Below, one piece after another: positions 11,313 to 39,884 of a stretch of DNA of 64,000 bases. Position 1 is the stretch's first letter; every line of letters begins with the position of its first letter. The notes beneath the pieces are model-generated. The model had not been told where the DNA came from and did not search any database. It was given only the letters and a program-made list of their open reading frames with translations. The position numbers and the translations under genes are program-made. The stretch lies in contig JAKZZE010000033.1 in NCBI GenBank assembly GCA_024220505.1, forward strand, positions 496,001-560,000, given 5' to 3'. The stretch is from Rhizopus arrhizus. Lineage: Eukaryota; Mucoromycota; Mucoromycetes; Mucorales; Rhizopodaceae.

Positions 11313-12625
11313 TTGTTTCTTTTTCTTTTTATTGTTTTATCTTTTGTTAAATAAATTCTACTATTATTTGTTAAATGTCGTTTAGAATTGTCTTGTCATG
11401 ACTAGATCTTCATGATGGTAATGTTGGTACTTTTTTATATAGCTTAGTTGTTATTCTTCAATGCCATTGGTCCTATGACGTTAATTATATGAAATAAACT
11501 TGCATGGATTTTAAAGCATTATTTTTTCTTTTCTTTTTTTATGGCTCTTTTCTTTTTTTTTTTTTTTTTTTTTTTCTTTCCGTATATTCATTATTACTCT
11601 ACTTTGTTAACAGTTTTTGATACTTTTAGCTATTGCTGATATGCACCATGTTTTGAAAACAAAATAGCTAAAACTAAATCAGCTCAAGAAGTTTACGCAT
11701 TACAAACGAAAAAAAAAAATAATAATTATGTTGCATGGGTATAAAGTTGATGAATGTTGTATTCCTTTTAACCATTTCTTTTTATCTTCGCTTATAGTAA
11801 GCTCTAGTATTCTTTTACTTCAAATATTGCGAGAGCTTTAGTCAAACAAGATGTTTTTAACGAATGGTTCACTAATTAAAGAAAACTTAGTTATGGCTAC
11901 ATTACAACATGCAACAACCCTTGCTCTTCTTCATATCTTTATTTGTATTTCTTTCCGCTCCTTACCTTGACACTTTACTGACTCTATCTGTAGTGTGCAA
12001 CCTAGCTGTATAATCAATACTCTATCATGCTGTAGACCAGTTTGTCGCAACTATTCATCCTCTGCTTTTGTATACTATGCTTGGTGTGTTGTTTCATATT
12101 GTGTATGCTGTTGATATTAGGTAAAATTATACTCTATGTTGCTTCAGATAGATTGAACCTTAACCAACATCATATTGTATAGATAGTATGTTTGAACAAG
12201 ACAAAAGGTATAATTTGTTTGCTTGTTACTTTTTTCTTAACTGATGTTTTTTATTTATTAGATTTTAATACTTTGTTTTATTTTGCAATGTGGATTTTGT
12301 ATGAAGCAACTGTAATGATATTAACGATAACAGCAATGATGATAGAGTATTATGAAACCCAATAAAGCATAGGCGCACGGACTTGAGGAAAAGTAACAAT
12401 GGTTGTATAAGACAATTATCCATCATGTGATAAAAAAAAAAAAAGGAAAACAATTTTGGTAAATAGAAATAAAATTGCATATGTTTAAATATTAATTACT
12501 CTGTTGAATGTAGATTGCAATGTAGATTGTTGAAAGTAATTAAATCTGCTAAATGGGTTGCATTGAATATTGTCGAGGACAGGTAAGTAATGACGTACGA
12601 TTATATTGGATCTGTTCATTCTGTA

Positions 12626-12750
12626 TTCCTTTTTTTTTATTATTCCTTTTTTTTTATTATTCCTTTTCTTTTATTATTCTTTTTCTTTTATTATTATTTT
12701 TTTTTTTTGCTATTACTTTTTTTTTGTTATTACTTTTTTTTTTATTCAAA
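12626..12750. repeat. TTATTCCTTTT microsatellite
   Basis: Tandem (T)nATTATT(C)CTTTT units in F1. The matching stretch in F2 (about 31950-32070) has different unit counts, which explains part of the length difference between the two CACTA copies. Confidence 0.8.
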
Positions 12751-12899
12751 TGAATAATATAATAAAATAAATAAAGCATCGTATTATTAAATCATTTAAA
12801 TTTGTCCATTTATACTGCCCTATACAATAATAAACCTACCCATTTTACTGGACATAATTGCTTAAACATAGCCATACTCTGCTTATATACAGAACAGCT

Positions 12900-13060
12900 A
12901 ATGTCTGCCTCGTCCAATTAAATTGTTATATTTTACTCCAATTTTACTCCAATTTTGCCTCATCCAATTAAATTGCTATGTGAAAGCGTATGAGAGTTCA
13001 TGTAGCATCATGTTTTACTCCAATGTTATTCCAATTTTATTCTAAATTATGCTAAATTCG
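12900..13060. repeat. Subterminal repeats of CACTA element F1
   Basis: Direct repeats TTTTACTCCAA (at least three) and GCCTC(G/A)TCCAATTAAATTG (two) lie within 250 bp of the right end. Such subterminal arrays are typical transposase-binding regions in CACTA elements. They are conserved at 31630-31800 in F2. Confidence 0.6.
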
Positions 13061-13134
13061 ACATTTTTAGCATCTTTATTTTATTAATCCGCGCCTACAA
13101 TGAGTGTTATGCGGAGATTTTTTGCGCCGTAGTG

Positions 13135-18972: not shown

Positions 18973-19107
18973 GGTTGTGATTGTGGTTGTGGTTAAACCC
19001 CAAAATCCTGTGGTTGCCCGCTTAATTTCAGAGTTGTGGTAGAAACACTAGCCGCACCCCATTGGGCATAGAAACGAGATAGAGCGATTTTTACACATAG
19101 CCTTCTA
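18973..19107 (+). repeat. Dispersed 422-bp-family repeat, fragment upstream of H1
   Basis: Begins in a GTGGTTGTGGTT stretch followed by TTAAACCCCAAAATCCTGTG and the GCACCCCATTGGG monomer. It replaces the downstream part of the Plavaka gene and is interrupted by Tc1 element H1 at TA 19106-19107; it resumes at 20738. Confidence 0.85.
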
Positions 19108-20737
19108 CAGTAGCGGACAAAACTGGTGCACAAAAATTAAAATCAACATTGTATCTCCGCCATATGTCTGCGACTTTTGTGGCATATACCATCTGAAAGA
19201 CAGTCCAAAATATACATTATGTTATGTAAACCGGAACTGTGCCGGACATCCCCCAGGCATAAGGTCATTTTTAGTGATTTTTTGCATATTTCAATTTTCG
19301 CCAAAAATGTAGTGCTTGTCTAGCCTTCTTTCAATTTTCCCCATATCTCTCCCGTTTGCTTTCAGATTTCACAGCATATTAGTAAATTTTAGTAGCTCTT
19401 AAAAAATATATAAAACTGTACTTATTTTGTGTTTCCCATTGAGTCCCCCCTTTTGTTTTTACCCTATTCACTATAACAAAGTACTAGCCTTATATGTTTA
19501 AGAAAATAAGCAACTGTAAAAACGAAACTCTGAGATCTCGAACACGCCTAGTTCGTACGACAGCAGATATTTCTAGAGTAACAAGGATCTCTAAATGGAC
19601 AATCAACAGGAGAAAGAGGGAAGAAAGAAACTTAATGTCTTGTGATCATGAAGGTATTCCGCTATTAGCCTGAAAAGTTATTAGTTCAGTCATCAACCTA
19701 GAGCTTGGACAAGGTCCGCTACACACAGTTCCTGATGCTCAGCACATTTTGAGGACCTTAAGATACAGTGTTAGCAGACTGTCAGTCTAAAGGCACAGTA
19801 GGAAGCTAGATTTTGAGTCCGGAAGTAAGGAATCGAAGAATTTCATCAGCTGTATAAGTCGGAAAAAGCGATGAATGTGGTATCACAACAAGCCATTGTA
19901 TACTATAGAGGGCTGGAAGTCTGCTATCTTTAGCAATGAAACAAATATGAACATTATGGATGCAGATAGTATACACTAATATTGAAAGCAAGTCGAGCAA
20001 CCTGAGCGATTTTTTCACGGTGATCAAACAATGAAGCATGCTGGCTGCTCTGTTATGTTTTAAGGCTGTATTAGATATTGAGGACCAGAATATGTGTGTC
20101 AGGTATACGATGGTATAATGAACTCATAAATATACACATATATTTCGCTTACTTCATACCACAAAAGCCTAGCGTATAGTAGTCTAAAACGTCGTAATCT
20201 CTCGTTTCAGTATGACAATGACACAAGGCACAAGTCAACGCATGTCATAAACTCAATATTTGATAACAGCGCTTCTGTGCTACAAGTTTAGCCGCCACTA
20301 ATCCCGGCCTAAGTCCGCTTAAGCATGCCAGGTGGCAATTGATGGCAAAGGTATGATGATACGACACTAGATCAAAAAGGGTCGATGATTTTTGGAAAAG
20401 AATAGTTAAAGAGCCGGGTTCTTTTACTGAAAATGATATACACGCATATTATTAGCATATGCAAAGAAGAATATCCGATAATATCAAGAGATGAGATGAT
20501 TATATAAAGTCTAAGATTTTAGCCACTTTTGCGGTTTTTAGAAAATATAAGATTTTATAAATTCAAAGCACGCTTATCGCTCAGTTTTAACAATGTCATG
20601 CTTAGAACATACATAGATTACAATGACTAGTATATCCTCCTTCTAGTACAGTTTCATGACTATTGCAATTACCATGAGCAGGTAATGGTAGTTAAAAGCT
20701 AAAAAAAAGTTTTGTGCACCAGTTTTGTCCGCTACTG
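19108..20737 (+). mobile_element. Tc1-like element H1 (degenerate copy)
   Basis: 1630 bp, ends CAGTAGCGGACAAAACTGGT and complement, flanked by TA, inserted into the dispersed repeat. Terminal repeats (about 29 bp) are identical to those of the intact relative H3, but the transposase region is heavily mutated. A second copy with nearly the same mutations, H2, lies at 36587-38216. Confidence 0.95.
19494..20515 (+). pseudogene. Decayed Tc1-family transposase (H1)
   Basis: Position-for-position relative of the intact H3 gene, starting at the same distance (386 bp) from the element end. Recognisable remnants include ATGTTTAAGAAAATAAGCAA at the start, TCTCTAAATGG for the helix-turn-helix and GATGAATGTGG through the catalytic domain, but frameshifts and stops occur throughout (for example the SDETK region reads AGCAATGAAACA with no open frame). 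No functional product is possible. Confidence 0.85.
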
Positions 20738-21192
20738 TATGTTTACGCCTATGGATAGGCTTATAGTTAAAATTTGGCTTATGGCTAAAGTTAAGTGGAG
20801 TGATAACCAACACTAGACACACCCCATTTGGTATGCAAATCATACAAAGAGATTTTTACACATAGCCCACTATTTTTGTGCCTATGGCTATGCTTATAGC
20901 TAAAATTTGGCCTATGACTAAAGTTAAGCTTGGATCTCTGATTATTTCTATCGCTATGGTTAAACCCCAAAATCCTGTGGTTGCCCGCTTAATTTCAGAG
21001 TTGTGGTTAGGGCACTTTTCTTGACGATAACTAAAGTTAGAGTCACGGCTATAGCAAAAATATGAAATTCAGTGTTGGCCGGTTACGTTTCGGAGTAATT
21101 CGAACACTAGGTGCACCCCATTGGGTATATAAACGAGATAAAGTGATTTTTACACATAGCTCACTATTTTTGTGCCTATGGCTAGGCTTATA
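20738..21192 (+). repeat. Dispersed 422-bp-family repeat, between H1 and D
   Basis: Several diverged monomers with the phrases GCTTATAGCTAAAATTTGGC, CACCCCATTTGG, ATTTTTACACATAGCCCACT and CCAAAATCCTGTGGTTGCC. Element D is inserted at a TA within GGCTTATAGCTAAAATTTGG; the other side of that insertion site is found, inverted, at 26200-26327. Confidence 0.9.
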
Positions 21193-22413
21193 CAGTGGCC
21201 AGCAAAACCGTTCGCACAAAACGCATTTTTTTCTTTCTGCGCCTTTTACGACATATTACTCTTACTAAATGCTACCTATAATACATATTGCCTAAAAGTA
21301 CAAACCCTTGGCGTTCTGATGACGTATGATATGTCGCCCTACGCGCACCCTAAACAGTACTACGGACAATTAAAACTCAAAGGTACATTCGAACGGTTTT
21401 GCGGCCGTATGTTTCGAAATCAAAATGTGTTAAAATAAGTTTATTTAATATCCAATATAAAGCCCATCAGCCTCAATAACTGCACGGCATCGCTCTGGCA
21501 TACTTTTAATAAACTTTTGGCATTCTTCAGCAGTGATTTGGTACCAAGTGTGTCCTATACGGTCCCATAGCTCATGCATACCACATGGAGGAGAGTCATA
21601 GTTTCTAAACAACCGTCTTTTACGTAATTGCCACATGTTTTCGATTGGGTTTAAGTCCGGTGATTGTGGTGGCCATTCCATTACATGAAACTCTTGCTCA
21701 TTTAGCCATTTTGATACGACTTTTGCTGTATGTTTGGGGTCGTTGTCCTGCATAAAGATGAACTGATTGGTAAATTTTCCACTTTCTTCCATATACCAAG
21801 CCAAAGACTTCATCAAATCATCTTGTAAAACCTCCAAATAGACGTCCTTTGTCATGCACTTGCCCACATCCACAATATAGCCTGGGCCATACCAGCTAAT
21901 ACAGCTCCATACCATTATACAACCTCCTCCATGCTTCACTGTCTCACGAACCTGATGCTTTTTTAACGGTTTGCCTGGCACTTTCCATGCATAAGACTTT
22001 CCGTCGGATCCAAAACGGTTGACTTTGGTTTCGTCAGACCATATGACGTTCATCCAATCGTTTACTGTCCAGTCAATGTGCTGACGTGCCCATTGGAGCC
22101 TCCTCATTCTATTTCTTTCATTAATTAAAGATTTCTTTGGCTTGACGAATGAGACCAAACCAGCATCTTTTAATGCCCTACGTACAGTATCTACAGAAAC
22201 TGACTTGCCCAGGTTCTGCTCCAATGACTGCTGTGCTTGTACAGCGTTTTCGAGTCCATCTGCTGTTATAGCGCGAACGAGATGCTGCTGTTCCCGCTTA
22301 GTGAGCGCTTTTGGTCTGCCACCCTTGTCATTTCTAGCAGGCAAACCTAATTCTAAGCGAACCTTATGAACAGTAGATGACGATACTTTGACTATCTTTG
22401 CAATTTTGTGATA
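21193..22413 (-). mobile_element. Tc1-like element D, 3' half
   Basis: Begins with terminal repeat CAGTGGCCAGCAAAACCGTT (TA at 21191-21192), about 208 bp long. Its inner end near 21390-21400 again carries an inverted version of the terminal motif (CGAACGGTTTTGCGGCC). The element stops at 22413 where TIR element E begins, next to TTGTGATA, the target duplication of E. The matching 5' half is at 26328-26784. Confidence 0.9.
21445..22413 (-). pseudogene. Tc1-family DD34E transposase, C-terminal part (D)
   Basis: Open from the interruption at 22413 to the stop at 21445, about 322 residues. It starts within the first helix-turn-helix (YHKIAKIVKVSSSTVHKVRL), then linker NDKGGRPKALTKRE, a second DNA-binding domain, and a full catalytic domain: VIWSDETKVNRFG, KHGGGCIMVWSCIS, FMQDNDPKHTAK and SPDLNPIENMW. 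There are 34 residues between the last two acids. No lesion is seen in this part. The missing first about 24 residues, starting MQLLTQDRKNTIELYLRQGF, are at 26714-26784 on the opposite strand; the two pieces overlap in the 8 bp TATCACAA, the target duplication of E. Confidence 0.9.
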
Positions 22414-22888
22414 GGGTGATTGGGACTTCAGGCCACGATGGATAAACCATTAGATATACAGTTCAATCGGAGATATATTTACAGTCCAAATATGGAAACA
22501 AGGGTTTTTGAGTATGGAGAATACGATGCCGCAGTTTAAATATTAAAATTCCGACATATTGCTGCTCTAATCGCAGAATTTGGCACTTTTTTCATGTTCC
22601 GTAAATGTAGTCCAATCCTGTTATCACGTAGCTTATCCATTAGGTAGCAGACATTGTAATTAATGCACTCAATTATAAAACTTTTGATTTTCTCTGCATC
22701 ACTCCGGCTAGCTTTTTTAAAATACGTATACACGAAATTTTCTTTAAATTTGGCATAAAATAGTCATTGTAAGTAATGAAAGAGATACACAGAACAATGT
22801 TCGTATTTAGTTACGGTTAAAAAACATCTTGCAACCCATGAAAAGCATAAATTAATTTAACTGCAAGTGGGACACAATAATATTATTT

Positions 22889-22978
22889 TCCTCTTCTGAC
22901 AGATAGTTAAAATAGCTTGGTTGGAGAAGTGTGACCTTTCTAAGGTGCGGTTCCTGGGTTCGATACCCGTAGGAGGAA
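22889..22978 (+). tRNA. tRNA-Arg(TCT)-like Pol III sequence, probably degenerate
   Basis: Strong internal promoter boxes are present: A (TAGCTTGGTTGG) and B (GGTTCGATACC). The acceptor TCCTCTT can pair with AGGAGGA, a D-arm GCTT/AAGT is possible, and the anticodon loop TTTCTAA would give TCT. However, 17 extra bases lie between the acceptor strand and the D-arm, and the anticodon stem has only three good pairs. More likely a tRNA pseudogene or the head of a tRNA-derived SINE carried by element E than a working tRNA. Confidence 0.35.
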
Positions 22979-23068
22979 CAGTTTTACTTTTATGGAAAAT
23001 TTTGTTCAATCATCTATTTTGGTTACGAAATCTAAATTCGACGTAAGCCACAAAGGAAATGAAGTTAC

Positions 23069-23385
23069 TGTGACGAAAACGGCAATCGGGTCGTACAAAT
23101 CCCTTCCGATGCAAGTCGTTTTGGCGACTTGAGTCAACAAAATGACTTGAGTCGTTAGACCGAAAACTTTCGGTTAAAGGAAAAATTAATCCAACAAGGA
23201 GAATCAAGGCAACAAATTTTATATAAATATCCAACAAACCCTTTTTTATTTTTATTCTTATTCTTATCAATATCAATAAAAGAATCACTTATATCTTATA
23301 TTCAGACTCTTCATTGAGCTCTTTGAACCCCTTTTTATATTATCTTTTTATTTTACAACACACTTTTTATCGATCTTAACAAACA
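23069..23385 (+). repeat. Solo LTR inside E (left arm)
   Basis: Starts TGTGACGAAAACGGC and ends CAAACA, followed by AGATC and the primer-site-like TGGTGGTCAC at 23391-23400. It contains paired GACTTGAGTC(A/G) motifs and TTATATAAATA (about 23219). Belongs to the LTR group also found at 7.2-9.2 kb. Confidence 0.65.
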
Positions 23386-23569
23386 AGATCTGGTGGTCAC
23401 TACCTATATCAAGCTTTCGCTTAAACTTTATATCAAGAATAACAAGTTTCTCTTACGAAACACTTCAAACAACAACTAAAATCTACTCTATAACCTTATA
23501 CTCAAATCACAAGTACCTACTAAGTAACATTACTTCTTAAAATCTTTTTCCTTTTTTTTCTTTTTGTAA

Positions 23570-23804
23570 CTGCAAATTATCAAGCGGAAGTACAACCACC
23601 TCCATTACGTCGCCGTAGACTGAACAGAAGATGAGAGCAGACCTTTACCTAGTTCTGATAACAATAGTACCCTTTCGGTCGAATAAGCTACAAGTAGATT
23701 ACTGGAAGTTGTGCGAAACAGAGATATAGATAACCTTCAAACAGCATCAGAAGCATTGTACAATGCTATGGTCGCAGAACAAAGTACTTCAAATGCAACA
23801 TAAT
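23570..23804 (+). pseudogene. Possible gag remnant after the LTR in E (left arm)
   Basis: Downstream of the primer-site-like sequence, frames interrupted by one stop and a frameshift read QAEVQPPPLRRRRLNRR and then SRPLPSSDNNSTLSVE, stop, ATSRLLEVVRNRDIDNLQTA...AEQSTSNAT. Base composition is less AT-rich than the surroundings. Position right after an LTR suggests the start of a gag gene; no known motif confirms it. Confidence 0.3.
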
Positions 23805-26100
23805 AAACGTAAAAGATATTAGAAAACACGAACAATTTTTTACAAAGATATCTGTTATATACCTTTTCGATGTGATAGAGGTATTTTAATGTAAATTACT
23901 TAAACTTATATGAAGTGACAATTTGTTTTTTTATGTAATCAGTGCATCAATATATGTTAACTTTTATTTGCACACCAAAAGCACTATTATGCTCTTGCTT
24001 ATAATTTTTCTTTGCCTATATATTACAGACTGTTTTAGTTTCTTTTTTATACCTATTATCGAATATAAATACACATGCAATAAAAAACTAAACAGCAAAG
24101 AGAAATGTATCGAATCCAATAAAAAACTTACTTTTTTTTCTAATACGAATTATAATGAGAACAATACATTTAATCAGAACATTTTAAAATTAAATTAAAA
24201 ATAAGCTTGTAATTAACGAAATAGTCTAAAACCGATATGAATTAATATTTCTAAAGTATATTTACGAATGATATTGTGTTATTATATAAAAGTATATATG
24301 TTATTATCATTTTAGAACATTAACTAAATGTAGTTGACATTGGTAAATATAAGTCTTAATACAAGATTATAGCTAAATAAAATATAAGTTTATTTAAATA
24401 AGGTCATACAATCAATTCCAATTAAATATATTCTTTTAGAATATGTTTTGTATTTATGAGAGTCTTTGATAAGAAGAAGTATTAACTAAAGTAACAAAAT
24501 CCAATCAAATGTCAAATATCTCTCTAATCTTTCACATAATTGAAATAGCGTTATTCAAATCAGTGAAAAAATCCCAGAGTAAAAGATAAATATTTGACAG
24601 GCATACAAACGAACAGACGAAAGCTTTTCACAACCATAATTATAAATGACATTTGCTGAAGTACCTTACAGTTAAAGAAACGCTTACAATAGAGGATATT
24701 AAGCTACTGAGAAACAATCCAATTCATATTATTTTTTTTACAAAATAAAAAAAGAAAACAAATACTAAAAAGATATTGTTTAATATAATTAATACCATTT
24801 TCATAAGTACAGTAAATTGGTTAAGAAACAACTGATGTAAAAATAATAATTATTTAAATATTAAGAGTAACTTAAAAATTATGATAAATTCTAAAATTAA
24901 TAAATGTGTGTTTGTATTAGTATTAATATTGAAAAATTTACAAAGTCATATAATTTGCATAATGATATGATTTTATATTAATACTAACTTTTATCATTTC
25001 TTTTAGATTTTATCTTTTTTATAATTGAAATATTCCTCACTCAATAAGATATAAATATCTGCCTTCAGTTAGTGTAATTTTTACTTTTAACTTAAGCCGA
25101 AGAATGATTAGATTCAAAGGTGTTCAAGTTGTTTCTCAATCTTTGTTTCCAGCTTTTCTTTTATTATTTTAACAATTACACAATAATTACAATTAGTTAC
25201 TTTTTACAACTAATGTTGGAGCCATAGCCAAAAAATAAACACCTTTTAAAAATCGAAGAAACAACATGATTCTTACATGATAATAATGATGCATTTAGCC
25301 AGAAGTATTAGTATTTATCTCATATTTTTCAAAAGATATTTGAGAATAAGCTTTTATGTGGCATGCATATCCGGACAATGGATGATACCTCTTTATAAGA
25401 AGTCCTAGTTATAGCATGTACGCTATGAATCCTAATTAGGTCAGAAAACTTTTGGCAGTCATAATGATGTTCTCTATAACAGCCATTAATTAGTGCAATT
25501 AGAGTCCAAAGAACGTACAAAGTGGTTTGGGAGCATTAATCCTTCACAAATGTAAACAAGGCCAAGCTGAGGAAACCAGATGCTTACAGTGCCGGAGTGC
25601 CCAAAACTCAATTTTTTAGATTCTGTTAAAAATTTTACCACACGCAAAACATAGCAAAATAAGTAGCTTCCCAAAGTCTCGGAGTATGAAGTCAAATATT
25701 CGCTCCGCAATGTTAAGAAAAGTGCGAATATGCTACAAATTTAGGAGCCCTATAAACCTATCATAGCTTGAAAGTTTTTTATAAAATTTTGCAGACCAAA
25801 CGATATAGCCGTCACAAATAGATGTGCAAACTTTCCGCTACAAACCCCGACATTTTTATTTTTTTGCGTTAGTTTTTGGCATATTTCTCTACAGCAAATC
25901 GGGACAAGCTAAAACAGTAAGCACACTTATTTTTGGAACATACTGTTACACAATTATTTAAAAGTTCATAAAAATCCATAAAGATCTCATGGATATCAAG
26001 AGCGCCAAAATTTCATCCATACCGCCTATTTTCAAATGCAAATATTGATATCAAAAAGTCGGAATTTGAATACAAAAATAGTACCAATCGATGCGCAATA
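23805..26100. other. AT-rich filler of E (left arm)
   Basis: More than 2 kb of very AT-rich sequence with no supported gene. The short frames at 23923-24198 (plus) and 25329-25710 (minus) recur in mirror position only because the arm is duplicated. Confidence 0.6.
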
Positions 26101-26199
26101 ACCGAAAGTATACGTTTCTATTTTTGGATTGTGATTATAGCTCCGATTTAATCACAGACCCAAGGATTTATCCATCGTGGCCTGAACTCCCAGTTGTCC

Positions 26200-26327
26200 G
26201 ATGGGGTGCGGCTAGTGTTTCTACCACTATTCTGAAATTAAGCGGGCAACCACAGGATTTTAGGGTATAACCTTAGAAATAATCAGAGATCCAAGCTTAA
26301 CTTTAGACATAGGCCAAATCTTAGCTA
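26200..26327 (-). repeat. Dispersed repeat fragment in the palindrome centre
   Basis: Reverse-complement fragment of the 422-bp-family repeat, including ATTAAGCGGGCAACCACAGG and GATCCAAGCTTAACTTTAG. It ends at TA 26326-26327 against the terminal repeat of D and continues, after reorientation, exactly where 21192 breaks off. Confidence 0.9.
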
Positions 26328-26784
26328 CAGTGGCCAGCAAAACCGTTCGCACAAAACGCATTTTTTTCTTTCTGCGCCTTTTACGACATATTACTCTTAC
26401 TAAATGCTACCTATAATACATATTGCCTAAAAGTACAAACCCTTGGCGTTCTGATGACGTATGATATGTCGCCCTACGCGCACCCTAAACAGTACTACGG
26501 ACAATTAAAACTCAAAGGTACATTCGAACGGTTTTGCAGCCACGTTTTAGGAGTTAGTCGATTGCGATAAACGCAGTCACTGCGCTCTCCAATCCTTCCA
26601 GAACTTTCGCTGCTTACTAATTCATCACTGCGCATTATTTTTCTACTTTTTTTCTTTTGTCATTCATACATTCTCATTTCGACATCTCGACATCTACCAA
26701 GTAATTACTTAACATGCAACTATTGACACAAGATCGCAAGAACACAATTGAGCTTTACCTTCGTCAAGGCTTTTCTTATCACAA
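26328..26784 (+). mobile_element. Tc1-like element D, 5' half
   Basis: The terminal repeat CAGTGGCCAGCAAAACCGTT is the same about 208 bp as at 21193, followed by a leader and the transposase start. It breaks at 26784 in TATCACAA, where the right-arm copy of E begins. Confidence 0.9.
26714..26784 (+). pseudogene. Tc1-family transposase, N-terminal piece (D)
   Basis: ATG at 26714 opens MQLLTQDRKNTIELYLRQGF followed by SYHK, the first helices of a Tc1 helix-turn-helix domain, and stops where E is inserted. The rest of the same gene is at 21445-22413 on the other strand; the shared TATCACAA at the break is the target duplication of E. Confidence 0.85.
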
Positions 26785-29179
26785 GGACAACTGGGAGTTC
26801 AGGCCACGATGGATAAATCCTTGGGTCTGTGATTAAATCGGAGCTATAATCACAATCCAAAATAGAAACGTATACTTTCGGTTATTGCGCATCGATTGGT
26901 ACTATTTTTGTATTCAAATTCCGACTTTTTGATATCAATATTTGCATTTGAAAATAGGCGGTATGGATGAAATTTTGGCGCTCTTGATATCCATGAGATC
27001 TTTATGGATTTTTATGAACTTTTAAATAATTGTGTAACAGTATGTTCCAAAAATAAGTGTGCTTACTGTTTTAGCTTGTCCCGATTTGCTGTAGAGAAAT
27101 ATGCCAAAAACTAACGCAAAAAAATAAAAATGTCGGGGTTTGTAGCGGAAAGTTTGCACATCTATTTGTGACGGCTATATCGTTTGGTCTGCAAAATTTT
27201 ATAAAAAACTTTCAAGCTATGATAGGTTTATAGGGCTCCTAAATTTGTAGCATATTCGCACTTTTCTTAACATTGCGGAGCGAATATTTGACTTCATACT
27301 CCGAGACTTTGGGAAGCTACTTATTTTGCTATGTTTTGCGTGTGGTAAAATTTTTAACAGAATCTAAAAAATTGAGTTTTGGGCACTCCGGCACTGTAAG
27401 CATCTGGTTTCCTCAGCTTGGCCTTGTTTACATTTGTGAAGGATTAATGCTCCCAAACCACTTTGTACGTTCTTTGGACTCTAATTGCACTAATTAATGG
27501 CTGTTATAGAGAACATCATTATGACTGCCAAAAGTTTTCTGACCTAATTAGGATTCATAGCGTACATGCTATAACTAGGACTTCTTATAAAGAGGTATCA
27601 TCCATTGTCCGGATATGCATGCCACATAAAAGCTTATTCTCAAATATCTTTTGAAAAATATGAGATAAATACTAATACTTCTGGCTAAATGCATCATTAT
27701 TATCATGTAAGAATCATGTTGTTTCTTCGATTTTTAAAAGGTGTTTATTTTTTGGCTATGGCTCCAACATTAGTTGTAAAAAGTAACTAATTGTAATTAT
27801 TGTGTAATTGTTAAAATAATAAAAGAAAAGCTGGAAACAAAGATTGAGAAACAACTTGAACACCTTTGAATCTAATCATTCTTCGGCTTAAGTTAAAAGT
27901 AAAAATTACACTAACTGAAGGCAGATATTTATATCTTATTGAGTGAGGAATATTTCAATTATAAAAAAGATAAAATCTAAAAGAAATGATAAAAGTTAGT
28001 ATTAATATAAAATCATATCATTATGCAAATTATATGACTTTGTAAATTTTTCAATATTAATACTAATACAAACACACATTTATTAATTTTAGAATTTATC
28101 ATAATTTTTAAGTTACTCTTAATATTTAAATAATTATTATTTTTACATCAGTTGTTTCTTAACCAATTTACTGTACTTATGAAAATGGTATTAATTATAT
28201 TAAACAATATCTTTTTAGTATTTGTTTTCTTTTTTTATTTTGTAAAAAAAATAATATGAATTGGATTGTTTCTCAGTAGCTTAATATCCTCTATTGTAAG
28301 CGTTTCTTTAACTGTAAGGTACTTCAGCAAATGTCATTTATAATTATGGTTGTGAAAAGCTTTCGTCTGTTCGTTTGTATGCCTGTCAAATATTTATCTT
28401 TTACTCTGGGATTTTTTCACTGATTTGAATAACGCTATTTCAATTATGTGAAAGATTAGAGAGATATTTGACATTTGATTGGATTTTGTTACTTTAGTTA
28501 ATACTTCTTCTTATCAAAGACTCTCATAAATACAAAACATATTCTAAAAGAATATATTTAATTGGAATTGATTGTATGACCTTATTTAAATAAACTTATA
28601 TTTTATTTAGCTATAATCTTGTATTAAGACTTATATTTACCAATGTCAACTACATTTAGTTAATGTTCTAAAATGATAATAACATATATACTTTTATATA
28701 ATAACACAATATCATTCGTAAATATACTTTAGAAATATTAATTCATATCGGTTTTAGACTATTTCGTTAATTACAAGCTTATTTTTAATTTAATTTTAAA
28801 ATGTTCTGATTAAATGTATTGTTCTCATTATAATTCGTATTAGAAAAAAAAGTAAGTTTTTTATTGGATTCGATACATTTCTCTTTGCTGTTTAGTTTTT
28901 TATTGCATGTGTATTTATATTCGATAATAGGTATAAAAAAGAAACTAAAACAGTCTGTAATATATAGGCAAAGAAAAATTATAAGCAAGAGCATAATAGT
29001 GCTTTTGGTGTGCAAATAAAAGTTAACATATATTGATGCACTGATTACATAAAAAAACAAATTGTCACTTCATATAAGTTTAAGTAATTTACATTAAAAT
29101 ACCTCTATCACATCGAAAAGGTATATAACAGATATCTTTGTAAAAAATTGTTCGTGTTTTCTAATATCTTTTACGTTTA

Positions 29180-29414
29180 TTATGTTGCATTTGAAGTACT
29201 TTGTTCTGCGACCATAGCATTGTACAATGCTTCTGATGCTGTTTGAAGGTTATCTATATCTCTGTTTCGCACAACTTCCAGTAATCTACTTGTAGCTTAT
29301 TCGACCGAAAGGGTACTATTGTTATCAGAACTAGGTAAAGGTCTGCTCTCATCTTCTGTTCAGTCTACGGCGACGTAATGGAGGTGGTTGTACTTCCGCT
29401 TGATAATTTGCAGT
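29180..29414 (-). pseudogene. Possible gag remnant in E (right arm)
   Basis: Mirror copy of 23570-23804, with the same internal stop and frameshift. No independent evidence for function. Confidence 0.3.
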
Positions 29415-29597
29415 TACAAAAAGAAAAAAAAGGAAAAAGATTTTAAGAAGTAATGTTACTTAGTAGGTACTTGTGATTTGAGTATAAGGTTATAGAGTAG
29501 ATTTTAGTTGTTGTTTGAAGTGTTTCGTAAGAGAAACTTGTTATTCTTGATATAAAGTTTAAGCGAAAGCTTGATATAGGTAGTGACCACCAGATCT

Positions 29598-29914
29598 TGT
29601 TTGTTAAGATCGATAAAAAGTGTGTTGTAAAATAAAAAGATAATATAAAAAGGGGTTCAAAGAGCTCAATGAAGAGTCTGAATATAAGATATAAGTGATT
29701 CTTTTATTGATATTGATAAGAATAAGAATAAAAATAAAAAAGGGTTTGTTGGATATTTATATAAAATTTGTTGCCTTGATTCTCCTTGTTGGATTAATTT
29801 TTCCTTTAACCGAAAGTTTTCGGTCTAACGACTCAAGTCATTTTGTTGACTCAAGTCGCCAAAACGACTTGCATCGGAAGGGATTTGTACGACCCGATTG
29901 CCGTTTTCGTCACA
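29598..29914 (-). repeat. Solo LTR inside E (right arm)
   Basis: Mirror copy of 23069-23385 with primer-site-like TGGTGGTCAC on the minus strand at 29583-29592. Confidence 0.65.
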
Positions 29915-30004
29915 GTAACTTCATTTCCTTTGTGGCTTACGTCGAATTTAGATTTCGTAACCAAAATAGATGATTGAACAAAATTTTCCATAAAAGTAAA
30001 ACTG

Positions 30005-30094
30005 TTCCTCCTACGGGTATCGAACCCAGGAACCGCACCTTAGAAAGGTCACACTTCTCCAACCAAGCTATTTTAACTATCTGTCAGAAGAGGA
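30005..30094 (-). tRNA. tRNA-Arg(TCT)-like Pol III sequence, mirror copy
   Basis: Mirror of 22889-22978, sequence unchanged, with the same boxes A and B and the same 17-base insertion. Judged degenerate for the same structural reasons. Confidence 0.35.
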
Positions 30095-30569
30095 AAATAA
30101 TATTATTGTGTCCCACTTGCAGTTAAATTAATTTATGCTTTTCATGGGTTGCAAGATGTTTTTTAACCGTAACTAAATACGAACATTGTTCTGTGTATCT
30201 CTTTCATTACTTACAATGACTATTTTATGCCAAATTTAAAGAAAATTTCGTGTATACGTATTTTAAAAAAGCTAGCCGGAGTGATGCAGAGAAAATCAAA
30301 AGTTTTATAATTGAGTGCATTAATTACAATGTCTGCTACCTAATGGATAAGCTACGTGATAACAGGATTGGACTACATTTACGGAACATGAAAAAAGTGC
30401 CAAATTCTGCGATTAGAGCAGCAATATGTCGGAATTTTAATATTTAAACTGCGGCATCGTATTCTCCATACTCAAAAACCCTTGTTTCCATATTTGGACT
30501 GTAAATATATCTCCGATTGAACTGTATATCTAATGGTTTATCCATCGTGGCCTGAAGTCCCAATCACCC

Positions 30570-30820
30570 CACCCCATCTATCGCTAAATGGTGTAAAACA
30601 GCCTTACTGCATGGAAATACGGTACATGTCAGCTACTGGATTCGAACTCTCGGCTAATGGCTAGCATGACCGTAATGTTGCTGTAATTTTAAGGCGTTGA
30701 TTCAATGGCTTGTAAGAGTTAATGGTTTTGAAATAGAGTAAAGTTGATGAAAATGGATAAAAAAATAAGAGTTGGGTAGAGTATTGATATTAGGTTCGCT
30801 TGTAAGTGACCACCAGATCT
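30570..30820. other. Flank of E and retroelement internal remnant
   Basis: Begins with the target-duplication copy CACCCCATC, then about 110 bp of unique sequence. From about 30696 it matches, inverted, the internal sequence at 7720-7860. TGGTGGTCAC-type primer-site sequence (here GTGACCACCA, 30806-30815) adjoins the LTR. No gene. Confidence 0.6.
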
Positions 30821-31554: not shown

Positions 31555-31949
31555 CACTACGGCGCAAAAAATCTCCGCATAACACTCATTGCAGGCGCGG
31601 ATTAGTAAAATGAAAATGCTAAAAATGTCGAATTTAGCATAATTTGGAATAAAATTGGAATAAAATTGGAGTAAAACATAATGCTACATGAACTCTCATA
31701 CGCTTTCACATAACAATTTAATTGGATGAGGCAAAATTGGAGTAAAATTGGAGTAAAATATAACAATTTAATTGGACGAGGCAGACATTAGCTGTTCTGT
31801 ATATAAGCAGAGTATGGCTATGTTTAAGCAATTATGTCCAGTAAAATGGGTAGGTTTATTATTGTATAGGGCAGTATAAATGGTCAAATTTAAATGATTT
31901 AATAATACGATGCTTTATTTATTTTATTATTCATTTAATATACATTTGA

Positions 31950-32080
31950 ATAAAAAAAAAGTAATAACAAAAAAAAAGGAATAACAAAAGAAAAGGAATA
32001 ATAAAAAAAAAGTAATAACAAAAAAAAAGGAATAATAAAAGAAAAGGAATAACAAAAGAAAAGGAATACAGAATGAACAA
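31950..32080. repeat. AAAAGGAATAA microsatellite in F2
   Basis: Counterpart of the T-rich microsatellite of F1, with different unit numbers. G2 inserted at its edge. Confidence 0.75.
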
Positions 32081-32090
32081 ATCCAATATA

Positions 32091-33726
32091 CAGTGGGTCA
32101 AAAAACTGCACCAACCTAACCTAATTTTTCGGAAATAAGAGCATAGGTCTGTCAGTTTTATAGCAAACATTATGAAACTTGAACCAAACAAATTTAATAC
32201 TATTATAATTTATTGACAAAACTTTCAAAGTCAGAAGCTGAGTATACACTTAAAGCGCGCCCAGAAAAAAGCGGAGGTCGGTTGGTGCAGTTTTTTGACT
32301 TTTAAAATAAAAGTGGGTTTGACACTATATGCCCGGACTGAGGCCATTCCGGCAGATATAAATTAGTCTGTGGAGTATGTAGTCACACTGGGGATCTTAA
32401 AATAAACTTTTTTGCAATTATTTTCCTTTTTTTTCTTTCCTACTTTACCCAAACGTATCATACATCGCCAGTGTCTATCCATCATTAGAAATGCCCAAAA
32501 CGGTTCCATTCGATGTTCAAAACAGTATCAAACCACTATTGGAAGATAGCGTTGACCCCACAGTCATTGGGAAACGAGTTTGAGTGCATAGAAATACCGT
32601 TAATAGGTATGCAAATAACTGGAAGCATAATAGAATACGTAAAAGCGGAGATAAATCGAGCATTGTGGCAAAATCAACGCGTCGATACATGAAGAGACAA
32701 GTACTCACGGGTTATTGGAAGACTGCCAAGGATGTTCAAATGAAGTTGGAGGAGCTTGGACACCCTATGTCGTATCAATCGGCCATTAATGTTTTACATT
32801 CAGTTGAAATTTATGCTGAGATCAAAAAGAAGAAGCCATTATTGACTGAAAAGCATAAGAAGGCTCGATTGACATGGGCAAAAAAGCATCAATACTGGAC
32901 AGTACATGATTGGCGACGTGTGATATTTTCTGGTGAGACCAAAATTAACATTTGGGGCTCGGATGGTTGCAAATATTATTGGAAGAAAAAATGCGATCGT
33001 TTACAGCCCCACCATATCGACGTTACTGTGAAGCATGGAGGCGGCGGTCTCATGTTATGGGGTTGTATAACCAGCGCAGGACCTGGATACGCATATCAGG
33101 TCTATGATGGTACCATGAATTCAGAGTTATACCAAGAAATTCTTGCTACAAGTCTGAAGGATACCATGAAGTACTATGGTCTGAATTGGAAACCATCGGT
33201 ATTTCAGCACGACAATGATCGTAAACATCGATCAAAGTTCACAACGCAATGAATGAAAGATAGGGGCATGGTTTACATTGACGATTGACCATCACAAAGT
33301 CCAGATCTTAATCCTGTTGAACATGTATGGCATCATTTGAAGTTAAAGCTGAGCATCTATGATAATACGGCGACCAGCATCCATGAACTGTGGGAAAGAG
33401 TCGAAAATGAATGGAATTCGTTTACTAAGAAACAACGCATCAAATATATAGACAATTTGCCCGACAGAATACAAGCAGTATTAGCAGAAAAGGGTGGATC
33501 CACTCGATTTTAAGAAAGTCAAAAAACTGCACCAACCGACCTCCGCTTTTTTCTGGGCGCGCTTTAAGTGTATACTCAGCTTCTGACTTTGAAAGTTTTG
33601 TCAATAAATTATAATAGTATTAAATTTGTTTGGTTCAAGTTTCATAATGTTTGCTATAAAACTGACAGACCTATGCTCTTATTTCCGAAAAATTAGGTTA
33701 GGTTGGTGCAGTTTTTTGACCCACTG
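32091..33726 (+). mobile_element. Tc1-like element G2
   Basis: 1636 bp, same ends and same about 215-bp bipartite terminal repeats as G1, flanked by TA (32089-32090 and 33727-33728). F1 has the intact empty site ATCCAATATAAT-GTACG (complement near 12598-12612), so G2 arrived after the two CACTA copies separated. Confidence 0.95.
32491..33513 (+). pseudogene. Tc1-family transposase, inactivated (G2)
   Basis: 341 codons including the terminal TAA, same length as in G1, from ATG 32491. It carries the same three in-frame TGA codons (before VHRNTVNRY; after KFTTQ; before PSQSPDLNP) and the same loss of the first catalytic Asp (SGETK). Around a dozen amino-acid differences from G1, including a damaged linker (GDKSSIV for GGRPSIV), show further decay. 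The unbroken middle piece spans 32584-33252. Confidence 0.9.
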
Positions 33727-34988
33727 TAATTGTACGTCATTACTTACCTGTCCTCGACAATATTCAATGCAACCCATTTAGCAGATTTAATTACTTTCAA
33801 CAATCTACATTGTAATCTACATTCAACAGGATGATTAATATTTAAACACATGCAATTTTATTTCTATTTACCAAAATTGTTTTTCTTTTTTTTTTATCAC
33901 ATGATGGATAATTGTCTTATACAACCATGGTTACTTTTCCTCAAGTCCGTGCGCCTATGCTTTATTGGGTTTCATAATACTCTATCATCATTGCTGTTAT
34001 CGTTAATATCATCACAGTCGCTTCAAACAAAATCCACATTGCAAAATAAAACAAAGTATTAAAATCTAATAAAAAACATCAGTTAAGAAAAAAGTAACAA
34101 GCAAACAAATTATACCTTTTGTCTTGTTCAAACATACTATCTATACAATATGTTGTTGGTTAAGGTTCAATCTATCTGAAGCAGCATAGAGTATAATTTT
34201 ACCTAATATCAACAGCATACACAATATGAAACAACACACCAAGCATAGTATACAAAAGCAGAGGATGAATTGTTGCGACAAACTGGTCTACAGCATGATA
34301 GAGTATTGATTATACAGTTAGGTTGTACACTACAGATAGAGTCAGTAAGGTGTCAAGGTAAGGAGCGGAAAGGAATACAAATAAAGATATAAAGAAGAGC
34401 AAGGGTTGTTGCATGTTGTAATGTAGCTATAAATAAGTTTTCTTTTAATTAGTGAACCATTCGTTAAAAACATCTTGTTTGACTAAAGCTCTCGCAATAT
34501 TTGAAGTAAAAGAATACTAGAGCTTACTATAAGTAAAGATAAAAAGAAATGGTTAAAAGGAATACAACATTCAACAACTTTATACCAATGCACATAATAT
34601 TTTTTTTTTCATTTGTAATGCGTTGACTGTTTGAGCTGATTTAGTTTTAGCTATTTTGTTTTCAAAACATGGTGCATATCAGCAATAAGTAAAAGTATCA
34701 AAAACTGTTAACAAAGTAGAGTAATAATGAATATACGAAAAAAAAAGAAAAGAGCCATAAAAAAAAATAAAAATAAAATAATGCTTTAAAATCCATGCAA
34801 GTTTATTTCATATAATTAACGTCATAGGACCAATGGCATTGAAGAATAACAACTAAGCTATATAAAAAAAGTACCAACATTACCATCATGGAGATCTAGT
34901 CATGACAAGACAATTCTAAACGACATTTAACAAATAATAGTAGAATTTATTTAACAAAAGATAAAACAATAAAAAGAAAAAGAAACAA

Positions 34989-35054
34989 TTATATTCTTCT
35001 CTTTTTATTTTGACGACGAGAAGTAGGACGAGTGCCAGAATGGGTGGTAGACAT
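34989..35054 (-). CDS. 21-aa basic micro-ORF inside F2
   Basis: The same MSTTHSGTRPTSRRQNKKRR-I peptide as at 11247-11312, identical in the two CACTA copies. Coding status unproven. Confidence 0.25.
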   Translation of the reverse strand: MSTTHSGTRPTSRRQNKKRRI

Positions 35055-36586
35055 AATGGTATGCTTTCCGATCTTTAATGCCTTTTTCTTCATTTCATTT
35101 ATGTAGCCTTCTTTTTTTTATTTTTTTATGCTTTTATGCCTATGTCTATGATTTAATAACTTCTTTTTCCATGTTCTTTTTTTTTTTAATTACCATCAAA
35201 ACTCCATCCAAAATATATATCTAATCTTCTCTTATGTATTGCTGTATTCACGTAAATCACTCTTCGACTATAGCCCAAATAAATTCTATGCATATGTTTC
35301 TATGCTTAAAGCCTTTTACAAGAAACTATTTTTATACGTTTTGTAGCTGTAATAAAAAAAATCGTTTTAAGAGTTTTTTTTAAAAAAAGCGTCAGGTTTT
35401 GTATCTGTTAACAAGTTGCACAGCAAAATGATATGTTATTTGACACCTTCCATTATCTCTACAATGTTACGTTGCTGTTAAAGGAATTTATGACCTTATA
35501 TCCAATATGCTAATCAAAATAAGATTTTTTTCATTATGGGTACTGAACTTGTATTTTTTTTTTCCTACCAAATGAAGACTTTTTTTCTACTAAATATTTC
35601 ATAAAGCATAGGACTAAACAGAATGTAGCTCATATTCTGTAAACATACATTAGACACAGTGTATATCAACAAACGATCACTATTTACCTTAAAAAAAAGC
35701 TAATTCTTGTTAAATAATTGTGAAAACTAGATTAAGGTACAAGATAAATAATAAAAGTTTAATTGTTAGCAAGTGTTTAGAATAGTAAAAATAATTACGA
35801 GCCGTAAGAATTTCGTAGCAGGATTACATGAAGAAAGAAAAGAAGTACAATCGGAAGTTTCTTGTACTTTTTGAAACGCTTGTAAGTTATAACGACGTCA
35901 TCCTAGAGCATTTGCAAACTCGTTTTTTTTTTTTTTATTACAATTATTTTTGAAATTCGGTTTATTTTAATTCATGATTACAACAATTATTAGTAGTCAA
36001 ACAGATTGAATTCCTTTGGCTTCAATTAAACTGACTATAACAGAGAAAAAGTATAATAACAAAGGACAACCTACTCAAATCAATATTTTTACCCAATGAA
36101 GAAGTAATTTAAACAAATTACTTTATTGTATATGGTCTGAATTTGATAATAGTTTATACAACTCTTTTTTATATCTATTACGCATTTATATTCTTCAGTT
36201 TATTTCCCCATATTTAATACAAAAAAATAAAGATTCACAACTATGACAAATCACTCTCAGTTCAATTAACATAAAAAGTTTGTAATGTAACTCGACTAGT
36301 AAAAGTATAATGAAGCAGTACTACAATTGGATACAAAGAAAAGTTACAGCAATCAAAGCATATCTTGTTTAAATTTGCTAAAATAAATAGAACTAAAGGC
36401 ACAGGTGCATTACTGACTCTTTGCCATAATGCTTACATGTCTTCTTTTTCACATTTTAAGTTTCCATTAAAAACATATCAGCTAGAGCACAAGATGTGGA
36501 AGTGGTTTAAGATACGACAATTGACAGAGGCATAAAAAACGTAAGCTTTGTTCTTTTTTTTTACATTTTTGGCAGTAATGGAGCTA

Positions 36587-38216
36587 CAGTAGCGGACAAA
36601 ACTGGTGCACAAAAATTAAAATCAACATTGTATCTCCGCCATATGTCTGCGACTTTTGTGGCATATACCATCTGAAAGACAGTCCAAAATATACATTATG
36701 TTATGTAAACCGGAACTGTGCCGGACATCCCCCAGGCATAAGGTCATTTTTAGTGATTTTTTGCATATTTCAATTTTCGCCAAAAATGTAGTGCTTGTCT
36801 AGCCTTCTTTCAATTTTCCCCATATCTCTCCCGTTTGCTTTCAGATTTCACAGCATATTAGTAAATTTTAGTAGCTCTTAAAAAATATATAAAACTGTAC
36901 TTATTTTGTATTTCCCATTGAGTCCCCCCTTTTGTTTTTACCCTATTCACTATAACAAAGTACTAGCCTTATATGTTTAAGAAAATAAGCAACTGTAAAA
37001 ACGAAACTCTGAGATCTCGAACACGCCTAGTTCGTACGACAGCAGATATTTCTAGAGTAACAAGGATCTCTAAATGGACAATCAACAGGAGAAAGAGGGA
37101 AGAAAGAAACTTAATGTCTTGTGATCATGAAGGTATTCCGCTATTAGCCTGAAAAGTTATTAGTTCAGTCATCAACCTAGAGCTTGGACAAGGTCCGCTA
37201 CACACAGTTCCTGATGCTCAGCACATTTTGAGGACCTTAAGATACAGTGTTAGCAGACTGTCAGTCTAAAGGCACAGTAGGAAGCTAGATTTTGAGTCCG
37301 GAAGTAAGGAATCGAAGAATTTCATCAGCTGTATAAGTCGGAAAAAGCGATGAATGTGGTATCACAACAAGCCATTGTATACTATAGAGGGTTGGAAGTC
37401 TGCTATCTTTAGCAATGAAACAAATATGAACATTATGGATGCAGACAGTATACACTAATATTGAAAGCAAGTCGAGCAACCTGAGCGATTTTTTCACGGT
37501 GATCAAACAATGAAGCATGCTGGCTGCTCTGTTATGTTTTAAGGCTGTATTAGATATTGAGGACCAGAATATGTGTGTCAGGTATACGATGGTATAATGA
37601 ACTCATAAATATACACATATATTTCGCTTACTTCATACCACAAAAGCCTAGCGTATAGTGGTCTAAAACGTCGTAATCTCTCGTTTCAGTATGACAATGA
37701 CACAAGGCACAAGTCAACGCATGTCACAAACTCAATATTTGATAACAGCGCTTCTGTGCTACAAGTTTAGCCGCCACTAATCCCGGCCTAAGTCCGCTTA
37801 AGCATGCCAGGTGGCAATTGATGGCAAAGGTATGATGATACGACACTAGATCAAAAAGGGTCGATGATCTTTGGAAAAGAATAGTTAAAGAGCCGGGTTC
37901 TTTTACTGAAAATGATATACACGCATATTATTAGCATATGCAAAGAAGAATATCCGATAATATCAAGAGATGAGATGATTATATAAAGTCTAAGATTTTA
38001 GCCACTTTTGCGGTTTTTAGAAAATATAAGATTTTATAAATTCAAAGCACGCTTATCGCTCAGTTTTAACAATGTCATGCTTAGAACATACATAGATTAC
38101 AATGACTAGTATATCCTCCTTCTAGTACAGTTTCATGACTATTGCAATTACCATGAGCAGGTAATGGTAGTTAAAAGCTAAAAAAAAGTTTTGTGCACCA
38201 GTTTTGTCCGCTACTG
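36587..38216 (+). mobile_element. Tc1-like element H2 (degenerate copy)
   Basis: 1630 bp, TA-flanked, inserted in F2; F1 lacks it. I count about six base differences from H1, while both differ from the intact H3 throughout. Its decayed transposase region starts at 36973. Confidence 0.95.
36973..37994 (+). pseudogene. Decayed Tc1-family transposase (H2)
   Basis: Same start, stops and frameshifts as the H1 pseudogene; no open frame longer than a short fragment. It shares its lesions with H1, so both copies descend from an already dead element. Confidence 0.85.
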
Positions 38217-38699
38217 TATAAGTTGTCTCTTTTTTTGTTCTTGCAAATTATCAATTATAAAAACAACCACAAAATATAGTTCAAGAAAGAAACAAAAAAG
38301 AGAGTCGCAGAACGTTTTTCTTTAAAAAAATAAAAAATTGTACATAATCTACTTTCTTTGTAATTGCTTAAAAAAACCAATGAAAAGGAATCTTTTTTTA
38401 CGACCATTACAATCATAATGCAGAAAAATGCAAGTTGTGTAATATCGGTTCGTGACGTCTTTTAACAGCAAAACTCAGGTTTTATATAGTTTAAAAAGTG
38501 ATTTTGCCAAGTAGATCCAGCCCATTTCAACATTTACCTGCAAAAAAAAAAAAAAGTGGAGCAATAAAAATGAATGGAGCTTTTTAAAAAAAAATACGGA
38601 GAACAACCAAAAAATAAACTCAAAAATAAACGAGAAGCACTGTAAAAAAATGCTTTAAGGAGTATTCGTATCCTTCAACGAGCATTCTTTGCGCCGCAG

Positions 38700-39092
38700 T
38701 TGAAGAAACCGGCAGGTGCTATGGAAGTAGATCAAAGGACCGGTGTCAACAGGGTAGAAGAGGCTGGAAGTGCTACCAATCCAGCTGTAGTCAATGTGGT
38801 CGATCGAGACTGGGAAACGGAGGATGGTCTATCTGACGAATCATCAACCGACCTTTCCTCTATGTATTTTGAAGACGATGCTAGCGATGACGATCAAGCT
38901 TCGATGACATCCGATATGGGTGATGGTGTGTCAGTGTACTGTTATCCGTATAGTCTACAACGAATGCGTGTTAGTTCACCCTTGCGCAGTGTCGTTATGA
39001 TCAAAGGCAAGCCAGTTGAAGCGGAGTTCGATACTGGCGCTAGCGTAAACGATCTTGGAATAGGATTATCTGGCTCAAAACAACTTTTCTAG
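38700..39092 (+). pseudogene. Retrotransposon fragment with aspartic-protease motif
   Basis: An open stretch of about 130 codons reading MEVDQRTGVNRVEEAGSA at its start, an acidic Ser/Asp-rich middle (EDGLSDESSTDLSSMYFEDD), and PVEAEFDTGASVN, the D-T-G-A/S active-site motif of retroelement proteases. After ASVNDLGIGL the frame ends. It begins directly at the end of CACTA element F2, so the upstream part is missing or displaced. Better GC balance than the flanks supports former coding use. No reverse transcriptase follows. Confidence 0.55.
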
Positions 39093-39484: not shown

Positions 39485-39884
39485 TAGCGGTTACGGTTAT
39501 GTTTGAAAATAAAAAAAAAGTAAATATAACCCAAAAAGTCCAAAAAGAACAACAAAACAAGAACACAAAGCACGAGTGCCGCTTTCGCTTCGAAATGAAG
39601 CTTCCTCAGGTGACTTAAACTTGCTCTTATATATCTTTTTCCACAAACTTAAAATTCTAGATAACGTAAAAAACTTAATCTAAAAAATCTTAAGGGAAAA
39701 CGTTTTAGAATGTCGCCAAGACGTAATAAATTAAAAAGACCTGGAGCGGGGCCAGCGATGGTGCTGTAACGTTGGACCAGATTCGGCGATGTAACCCAAG
39801 ATAATAATGTTACAAAAAAGAAAATGTATGACAATGACACGGGAATGGTTTGACTTACACAAGGAACGAGAACATGAATGCAGT
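39485..39884. other. Region between coding fragment and repeat
   Basis: No gene recognised; a short (TTATGG/TTACGG)-type stretch near 39450-39500 resembles the G/T-rich lead-in seen at other borders of the dispersed repeat. Confidence 0.4.

Follow-up and report, generated by a model that had tools for sequence, protein, structure and literature searches.

Inverted copies of a Merlin-type transposon flank a probably reversed 585-bp segment in Rhizopus arrhizus

Our analyses of a 64,000-nucleotide stretch of the Rhizopus arrhizus genome (hereafter the window; contig JAKZZE010000033.1, positions 496,001 to 560,000, assembly GCA_024220505.1) support the view that a 585-bp spacer (26200-26784, minus strand) lies reversed relative to its ancestral locus, and that the two inverted transposon copies on either side of it were the agents of the inversion. 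The arms of this palindrome are, as originally predicted, inverted copies of one non-autonomous Merlin-type transposon, element E: copy 1 (22414-26199, plus strand, 3786 bp), with about 465 bp of inserted solo-LTR-like sequence, and copy 2 (26785-30569, minus strand, 3785 bp), the sole difference being that copy 2 is one T shorter in a run of Ts (element position 3708). A second transposon, element D, is split by E, as had also been claimed, into a 3' part of 1221 bp (21193-22413, minus strand) that holds most of the transposase frame and a 5' part of 457 bp (26328-26784, plus strand), both of which end in TATCACAA. The TA at 26326-26327 separates the 5' part from a subtelomeric/satellite-like host repeat (26200-26325, minus strand), which makes up the remainder of the spacer.

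As assembled, neither arm is flanked by a target-site duplication (TSD), and reversal of the 585-bp spacer provides both of them with one, of 8 bp (TTGTGATA) for E copy 1 and of 9 bp (CACCCCATC) for E copy 2. The halves of the former are found at 22406-22413 (plus strand, TTGTGATA, the reverse complement of TATCACAA) and 26777-26784 (plus strand, TATCACAA); those of the latter at 26200-26208 (minus strand, GATGGGGTG (= CACCCCATC)) and 30570-30578 (plus strand, CACCCCATC). The claim that reversing the spacer alone mends all junctions at once is confirmed, D being rejoined at a single TATCACAA by the same operation. From base composition, the chance of such matches is 3.1e-5 and 8.4e-6 each, and 2.6e-10 jointly; it is worth adding that random position pairs drawn from the repeat-rich window gave an 8-bp match in 52 of 200,000 cases, that is, above the base-composition expectation. 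When left and right flanks of 11 near-identical E copies were compared crosswise, three of the 110 comparisons gave a match of at least 6 bp: the window pair accounts for two, and the third pairs one copy, L015, with another, L019. The 8 versus 9 bp difference between the arms is normal for the E family: the nine isolated near-identical copies have a TSD of 8 bp (five copies) or 9 bp (three copies), with none in L019.

Element D itself has the attributes of a Tc1/mariner transposon as judged from its sequence, namely a transposase with DDE_3 (PF13358) and HTH_Tnp_Tc3_2 (PF01498) domains, a TA duplication and inverted repeats. Each outer end of the two pieces begins CAGTGGCC and adjoins a TA, and these ends match at 99.5% over a 216-bp stretch that includes the TA. 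Seven loci were submitted to a full-length comparison and six were measured; TA borders D at either end, both in the window and in all six, and TATCACAA occupies positions 450-457 of D in every one of these full-length copies elsewhere. The proposal that D had inserted at a TA within a dispersed repeat is supported: only if the spacer is turned round does the empty site of D line up with the satellite.

In the same orientation, both E insertion sites are collinear with paralogues free of E, to which the host repeat of the spacer matches collinearly only when reversed. For the empty site of E copy 2, a genome-wide search returned 54 rows, of which 16 cross the junction (position 126 of the query): 12 paralogues run unbroken over query 1-229/230, and four shorter ones also pass it. 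The other rows stop at query 125 (25 rows) or earlier (11 rows), or are the window itself, which appears as two pieces on opposite strands. Satellite homology inside the window never crosses this site and stops 23 bases short of it; the right flank of the site alone scores 22 against the within-window satellite, for a shuffle mean of 22.8. Taken together, the subtelomeric-type paralogues support collinearity, while the tandem type diverges at the junction of E copy 2 and is silent on this point. Junction patterns of the ancestral orientation, searched for throughout the assembly, occur in the window only, on the other strand. The inner junctions (26199/26200 and 26784/26785) are blind to orientation because the arms are mirror images; likewise, the PCR originally suggested across these junctions is powerless to detect flipping, since both orientations have the same junctions between element and spacer. 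As a separate observation, the assembly contains a single copy of a 301-base stretch next to the lipase gene, a weak hint of no second haplotype.

On the evidence of its relatives, E belongs to the Merlin (IS1016/IS1595) superfamily but lacks a transposase. This identity follows from E', a full-length relative of about 4980 bp that encodes a DDE_Tnp_IS1595 domain (PF12762, E=8.6e-13); E and E' share 89% identity over their common right part and 91-93% over the left, with near-identical ends. No open reading frame inside the arms exceeds 92 aa. The terminal inverted repeats of E open with GG (GGGTGATT.../GGACAACT...) and are about 78-80% alike over 80 bp. The hAT, P and Mutator superfamilies, raised by the 8-9-bp TSD, were dropped after the PF12762 match in E'. 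According to the passages of PMC8101967 that deal with Merlin, these elements have 8- or 9-bp TSDs and GG termini, and 57 sequences are counted in Rhizopus delemar; E fits this description in its termini and TSDs, and through the DDE_Tnp_IS1595 domain of E', but differs in being devoid of a transposase. Of the isolated Merlin copies that could be tested for a TSD of their own, 18 of 20 have one, the two failures being L019 and a copy at C14:1051384-1060302.

The exchanged state is not confined to the window. On contig C8, an inverted pair of a second Merlin family (M2), with arms of 2.2 kb, has exchanged TSDs of 9 and 9 bp; an alignment of the partners (2178 columns) contains 0 mismatches and 2 gap positions, versus 8-20 mismatches with the copies L064 and L065, and of the copies listed (40 of 68 candidates scored) it is the partner that gives the C8 copy its highest score. 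On contig C39, a nest of E' elements (structure X | 1019->1 | 1011->4980 | 2721->1) has the same geometry, with arms of 1.0 kb and an exchanged 9-bp TSD; the explanation of this nest is incomplete, as no partner is seen for three of the five element ends in it. All three recognised close inverted Merlin pairs (window, C8, C39) are in the exchanged state, and from these sequences the Merlin group seems to make small inversions repeatedly. Two further candidates were not counted as proof of exchange. L019 (C39:952953-956271), considered as a third exchanged E copy, was set aside because its junction is offset by one base and the 530 bases adjacent on its left are a many-copy repeat; on the right, its flank matches that of L015 at 98.9%, while on the left the two flanks are unrelated, and L015 has its own TSD and an E-free paralogue at C38. 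The copy at C14:1051384-1060302 has unmatched ends, but a segmental duplication of the C3 locus accounts for its right part (99.7% over 5583 columns). Finally, an inverted pair of another Merlin family on C10, 14 kb apart, showed neither own nor exchanged TSDs when its flanks were inspected by eye, and is thus silent on the matter.

How did the spacer come to be reversed? In the history that we propose, a subtelomeric-type repeat would have taken in D at a TA; the non-autonomous element E would then have entered D, duplicating 8 bp of target, and another E, in the opposite orientation, would have landed about 130 bp past D, duplicating 9 bp. These near-identical 3.8-kb inverted copies may finally have undergone homologous recombination that flipped the 585 bp, exchanging the duplications and leaving D split. 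We give this whole history, two insertions followed by a crossover, a chance just better than even, and a crossover between two insertions is slightly preferred to aberrant or replicative transposition in one step. Long, closely spaced and essentially identical arms suit recombination, and the crossover gains from the arms of the window being of this kind. We infer that the exchange was a crossover and that it may recur, the flip site of the original prediction being putative. Of the original prediction of an inversion by recombination, the inverted spacer and the agency of the E copies stand, whereas a crossover of two pre-existing copies is not established; the four junctions do not speak for a crossover specifically, since one-step models predict them too and the products, hence the exchanged TSDs, are the same. 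The discriminator published in PMC2775673, whether the copies are chimeric or identical, is powerless here, arm 1 being identical to two unlinked E copies (L010 and L011) and arm 2 one base off.

It is tempting to hypothesize, as a possible if somewhat doubtful alternative, that a Merlin transposase joined the ends of the single E in D to a target about 590 bp away, in the inverting orientation and in one step, either by hybrid element insertion, in which the ends lie on sister chromatids, or by a replicative intramolecular event, copy and inversion arising together. Exchanged TSDs and identical copies are predicted by such an event, and both are observed. The chance that two of seven random full-length copies fall within 600 bp is about 5e-4, which favours some local mechanism; one-step transposition accounts for this closeness and for the exchanged state of all three recognised close pairs, which counts against a crossover, as free flipping should leave about half of them unexchanged. 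The closest match of the C8 copy to its own partner, among the copies listed, weighs in the same direction. Nevertheless, the sample is small, since at flip equilibrium three pairs would all be exchanged with a chance of 1/8, and local insertion plus crossover covers the same facts. Hybrid element insertion, or alternative transposition, is described for the P element and Ac/Ds in the parts of PMC2775673 concerned with it, where one step likewise yields an inversion between two copies with exchanged TSDs; the legend of its Figure S1 calls the single-site hybrid outcome strikingly similar to ectopic recombination, but with identical copies. For Merlin, the literature searched yielded no such case, nor anything that would directly demonstrate a replicative or hybrid mode of transposition, and TIR transposons, Merlin included, are presented as cut-and-paste in the relevant section of PMC8101967. 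A distant bacterial kinship is suggested by a review title that ties IS1595 to IS1, an element with a 9-bp duplication (by a reference title) that transposes replicatively within the chromosome and keeps the donor (PMC12428005, in the part on IS1); IS1 is bacterial, however, and an inversion product is not described in that part. That Merlin transposases invert DNA directly, with the E pair of the window, the M2 pair of C8 and the E' nest of C39 as their products, is a tentative idea to which we lean a shade less still; if true, the two ends of one element, on sister chromatids or still attached to the donor as in IS1, would be joined to a nearby target in place of a clean cut-and-paste, and tight inverted pairs, here from two Merlin lineages, would be born with exchanged TSDs, the element being copied in the same step. 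It is improbable that the true chromosome has the ancestral orientation and that the assembler reversed the spacer, even though about 3.7 kb of the arms is identical and it is the assembled orientation that lacks TSDs: C8 and C39 share the signature with arms of 2.2 and 1.0 kb, which long reads resolve easily, and 41 contigs for 50.3 Mb together with a 34-copy array of 422 bp make long reads likely. A selected or programmed switch, whose orientation would matter to the fungus, recalls phase-variable switches in its short segment between inverted arms and strikes us as very improbable, given that the spacer contains only a transposon piece and a repeat and that each arm is an unremarkable copy of a dispersed family, with reading frames of at most 92 aa, a small recombinase being still formally possible.

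The signature of exchanged TSDs is already known from Drosophila: in the account given by PMC2775673, inversions 2j, 2q7 and 2z3 of D. buzzatii were produced by Galileo, with inverted transposon copies flanking the inverted segment, exchanged TSDs and single target copies in non-inverted DNA. Flanking copies in opposite orientation and exchanged TSDs are both found in the window. Galileo differs in belonging to the P superfamily, with 7-bp TSDs and chromosomal inversions, in contrast to Merlin, 8 and 9 bp and 585 bp in the window; moreover, chimeric copies support a crossover there, whereas the window copies are too alike for that test. No inversion attributed to the Merlin superfamily was found in the literature searched, and a text search of the main text of PMC8101967 gave 0 occurrences of the word 'inversion'. 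The locus documents a small inversion caused by a transposon with unusual completeness: both duplications are exchanged, one element is split, and paralogues free of E serve as outgroups. With two further loci, the question as to whether Merlin inverts DNA itself or is merely a substrate for recombination becomes a testable one.

The window covers positions 496001-560000 of contig C27 (568,200 bases) in an assembly of 50.3 Mb and 41 contigs, and about 42 kb separate its palindrome from the contig end. The arms (22414-26199 and 26785-30569) are inverted copies of element E, identical except for a single T in a T run, and they enclose a spacer of 585 bp (26200-26784). The original prediction held that this spacer is reversed relative to its ancestor, and four tests agree with it: the target-site duplications (TSDs), the continuity of element D, and the empty sites of D and of E2, the second arm. 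As assembled, the pair shows no TSD, and duplications of 8 and 9 bp appear once the spacer is reversed; of nine isolated, nearly identical E copies, eight are flanked by a TSD of their own (8 or 9 bp), so a missing one is exceptional for E. The same reversal restores the continuity of D, which lies in two pieces (21193-22413, minus strand; 26328-26784, plus strand). At the D empty site, the left flank joined to the reversed spacer piece aligns unbroken to satellite units of the window, whereas the unreversed join aligns only as far as the junction, with the spacer matching on the opposite strand. The E2 test, in which the reversed spacer piece was joined to the right flank, is independent of both D continuity and the TSD of the first arm: the insertion point is spanned in 16 of 54 rows at 81-90% identity, 12 of them covering query 1-229/230 and four shorter, and eight of those 12 places begin less than 18 kb from a contig start. 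The window itself matches this query as two pieces on opposite strands; another 25 rows, for the most part tandem-type units, stop at query 125, a single base before the junction, and count neither for nor against the reversal.

The longer piece of D encodes DDE_3 and HTH_Tnp_Tc3_2, so D is a Tc1/mariner element. Six full-length copies measure 1669-1670 bp between TA dinucleotides and carry TATCACAA at positions 450-457; a seventh locus yielded no full-length copy. Four copies were checked for the transposase frame, which runs open from 378 to 1415 in each, so E interrupted it. The sequences of the two pieces fit a single former element: both have L002 (2+2 differences) and L003 (3+3) as their nearest copies, and they differ from the other four by 5-6 plus 14-16.

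Near-identical full-length E occurs in seven copies, both arms included, and four further copies (99%) are without an insert of about 465 bp. This insert (approximately 23065-23530 in arm 1, mirrored in arm 2) has TG...CA ends, is flanked on either side by a TTAC repeat, and resembles a solo LTR; it entered E before the latest copies spread. A longer relative, E' (about 4980 bp), has the ends of E and encodes DDE_Tnp_IS1595; E is thus a transposase-less Merlin, a superfamily described in Rhizopus delemar in an excerpt of PMC8101967. Together with a lipase encoded elsewhere in the genome, which agrees with the Rhizopus lipase 1lgy of the PDB at 268 of 269 residues, this points to a Rhizopus-like host. 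A PF12762 scan (83 hits) provided a second family, M2 (2.18 kb). Among isolated testable Merlin copies, 18 of 20 have their own TSD: E 8/9; E' 4/5 by eye on printed flanks (C3, C1, C23 and C2 yes, C14 no; C31 and C37, which run off contigs, left out); and M2 6/6 (five by script, C8:1064k by eye), leaving out six copies with one or both ends outside the stretches examined and one further long copy, C22:679015-681159.

Two other loci bear the same mark. The only tight inverted M2 pair among the matches listed (C8:1189860-1192036, plus, and 1193069-1195245, minus; L072) has 2.18-kb arms, a 1032-bp spacer and exchanged 9+9-bp TSDs, and 84 flank comparisons among seven M2 copies gave two matches, both from this pair. 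On C39 (1599141-1611830; L051, L023, L024, L038), E' copies are nested inside one another with inverted junctions, and for one E' within another the 9-bp TSD takes its normal form only after reversal of the 3.96 kb enclosed by inverted arms of 1.02 kb; the TSD traces just one of the insertions. An assembly error that reversed the window's spacer is unlikely, since these shorter-armed examples show the same exchange. No observation here supports continued flipping or a role of the orientation in the fungus. Junction PCR is blind to spacer orientation; to show it, a read or amplicon has to run the whole length of an arm. On C10, an inverted pair with its copies 14 kb apart says nothing about exchange: its flanks, read by eye, show neither own nor exchanged TSDs. 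L093 and L094 (31.4k and 45.2k of C10) belong to a third Merlin family, and their interiors are flipped with respect to the terminal bases, which suggests that the ends of a single element recombined. The E site L015 (C5:1565871) has an E-free paralogue at C38:79101-81200 (L052, 99.6%) and shares its right flank (98.9%, offset 1 bp) with L019 (C39:952953), whose left flank is unrelated.

How did the exchange arise? Under random insertion, the closeness of the window pair has a chance of about 5e-4, which calls for a local process. According to excerpts of PMC2775673 (Delprat et al. 2009), the product of ectopic recombination is a set of inverted copies that are chimeric and have exchanged their TSDs, and hybrid element insertion starting at a single site has nearly the same outcome but with identical copies. 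The E pair does not decide between a crossover and a one-step transposition, because a single base is all that separates its arms, and the unlinked copies L010 and L011 match them just as closely. The C8 partners have 0 mismatches and two gap positions, against 8-20 mismatches to the M2 copies L064 and L065, and the best bit score among the matches listed is to the own partner; such closeness fits a one-step event, gene conversion, or a crossover after local transposition.

Identical kilobase arms at such short distance recombine readily; for this reason, and given two further E-family loci with mixed flanks, neither of them a clean proof, we place crossover between existing inverted copies slightly ahead. 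A one-step transposition that creates the inverted pair together with its exchanged TSDs is nearly as good an explanation: all three recognised tight inverted Merlin pairs (window, C8, C39) are in the exchanged state, and IS1, which the title of a review links to IS1595, transposes replicatively within the chromosome (PMC12428005).

The surroundings are rich in repeats. A 422-bp unit, repeated 34 times with almost 100% identity, occupies 47955-62308 and is probably a subtelomeric satellite; related units lie at 39875-41528. A larger inverted duplication (9225-13134 and 31555-38700, 94-99.6%) has its right copy broken by two Tc1-like stretches (32089-33728 and 36585-38219), the latter 99.6% identical to 19105-20740. 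An M2-like relic (46227-47565, 89%) has counterparts close to the termini of several further contigs, and a tRNA-Thr gene (6975-7048) is shortly followed by a dispersed AT-rich repeat that starts at about 7184, possibly a tRNA-targeted retroelement.

The window locus is a well-marked micro-inversion of an already known kind, new for Merlin within the literature searched, and its recurrence at other loci of the same genome makes it more interesting.
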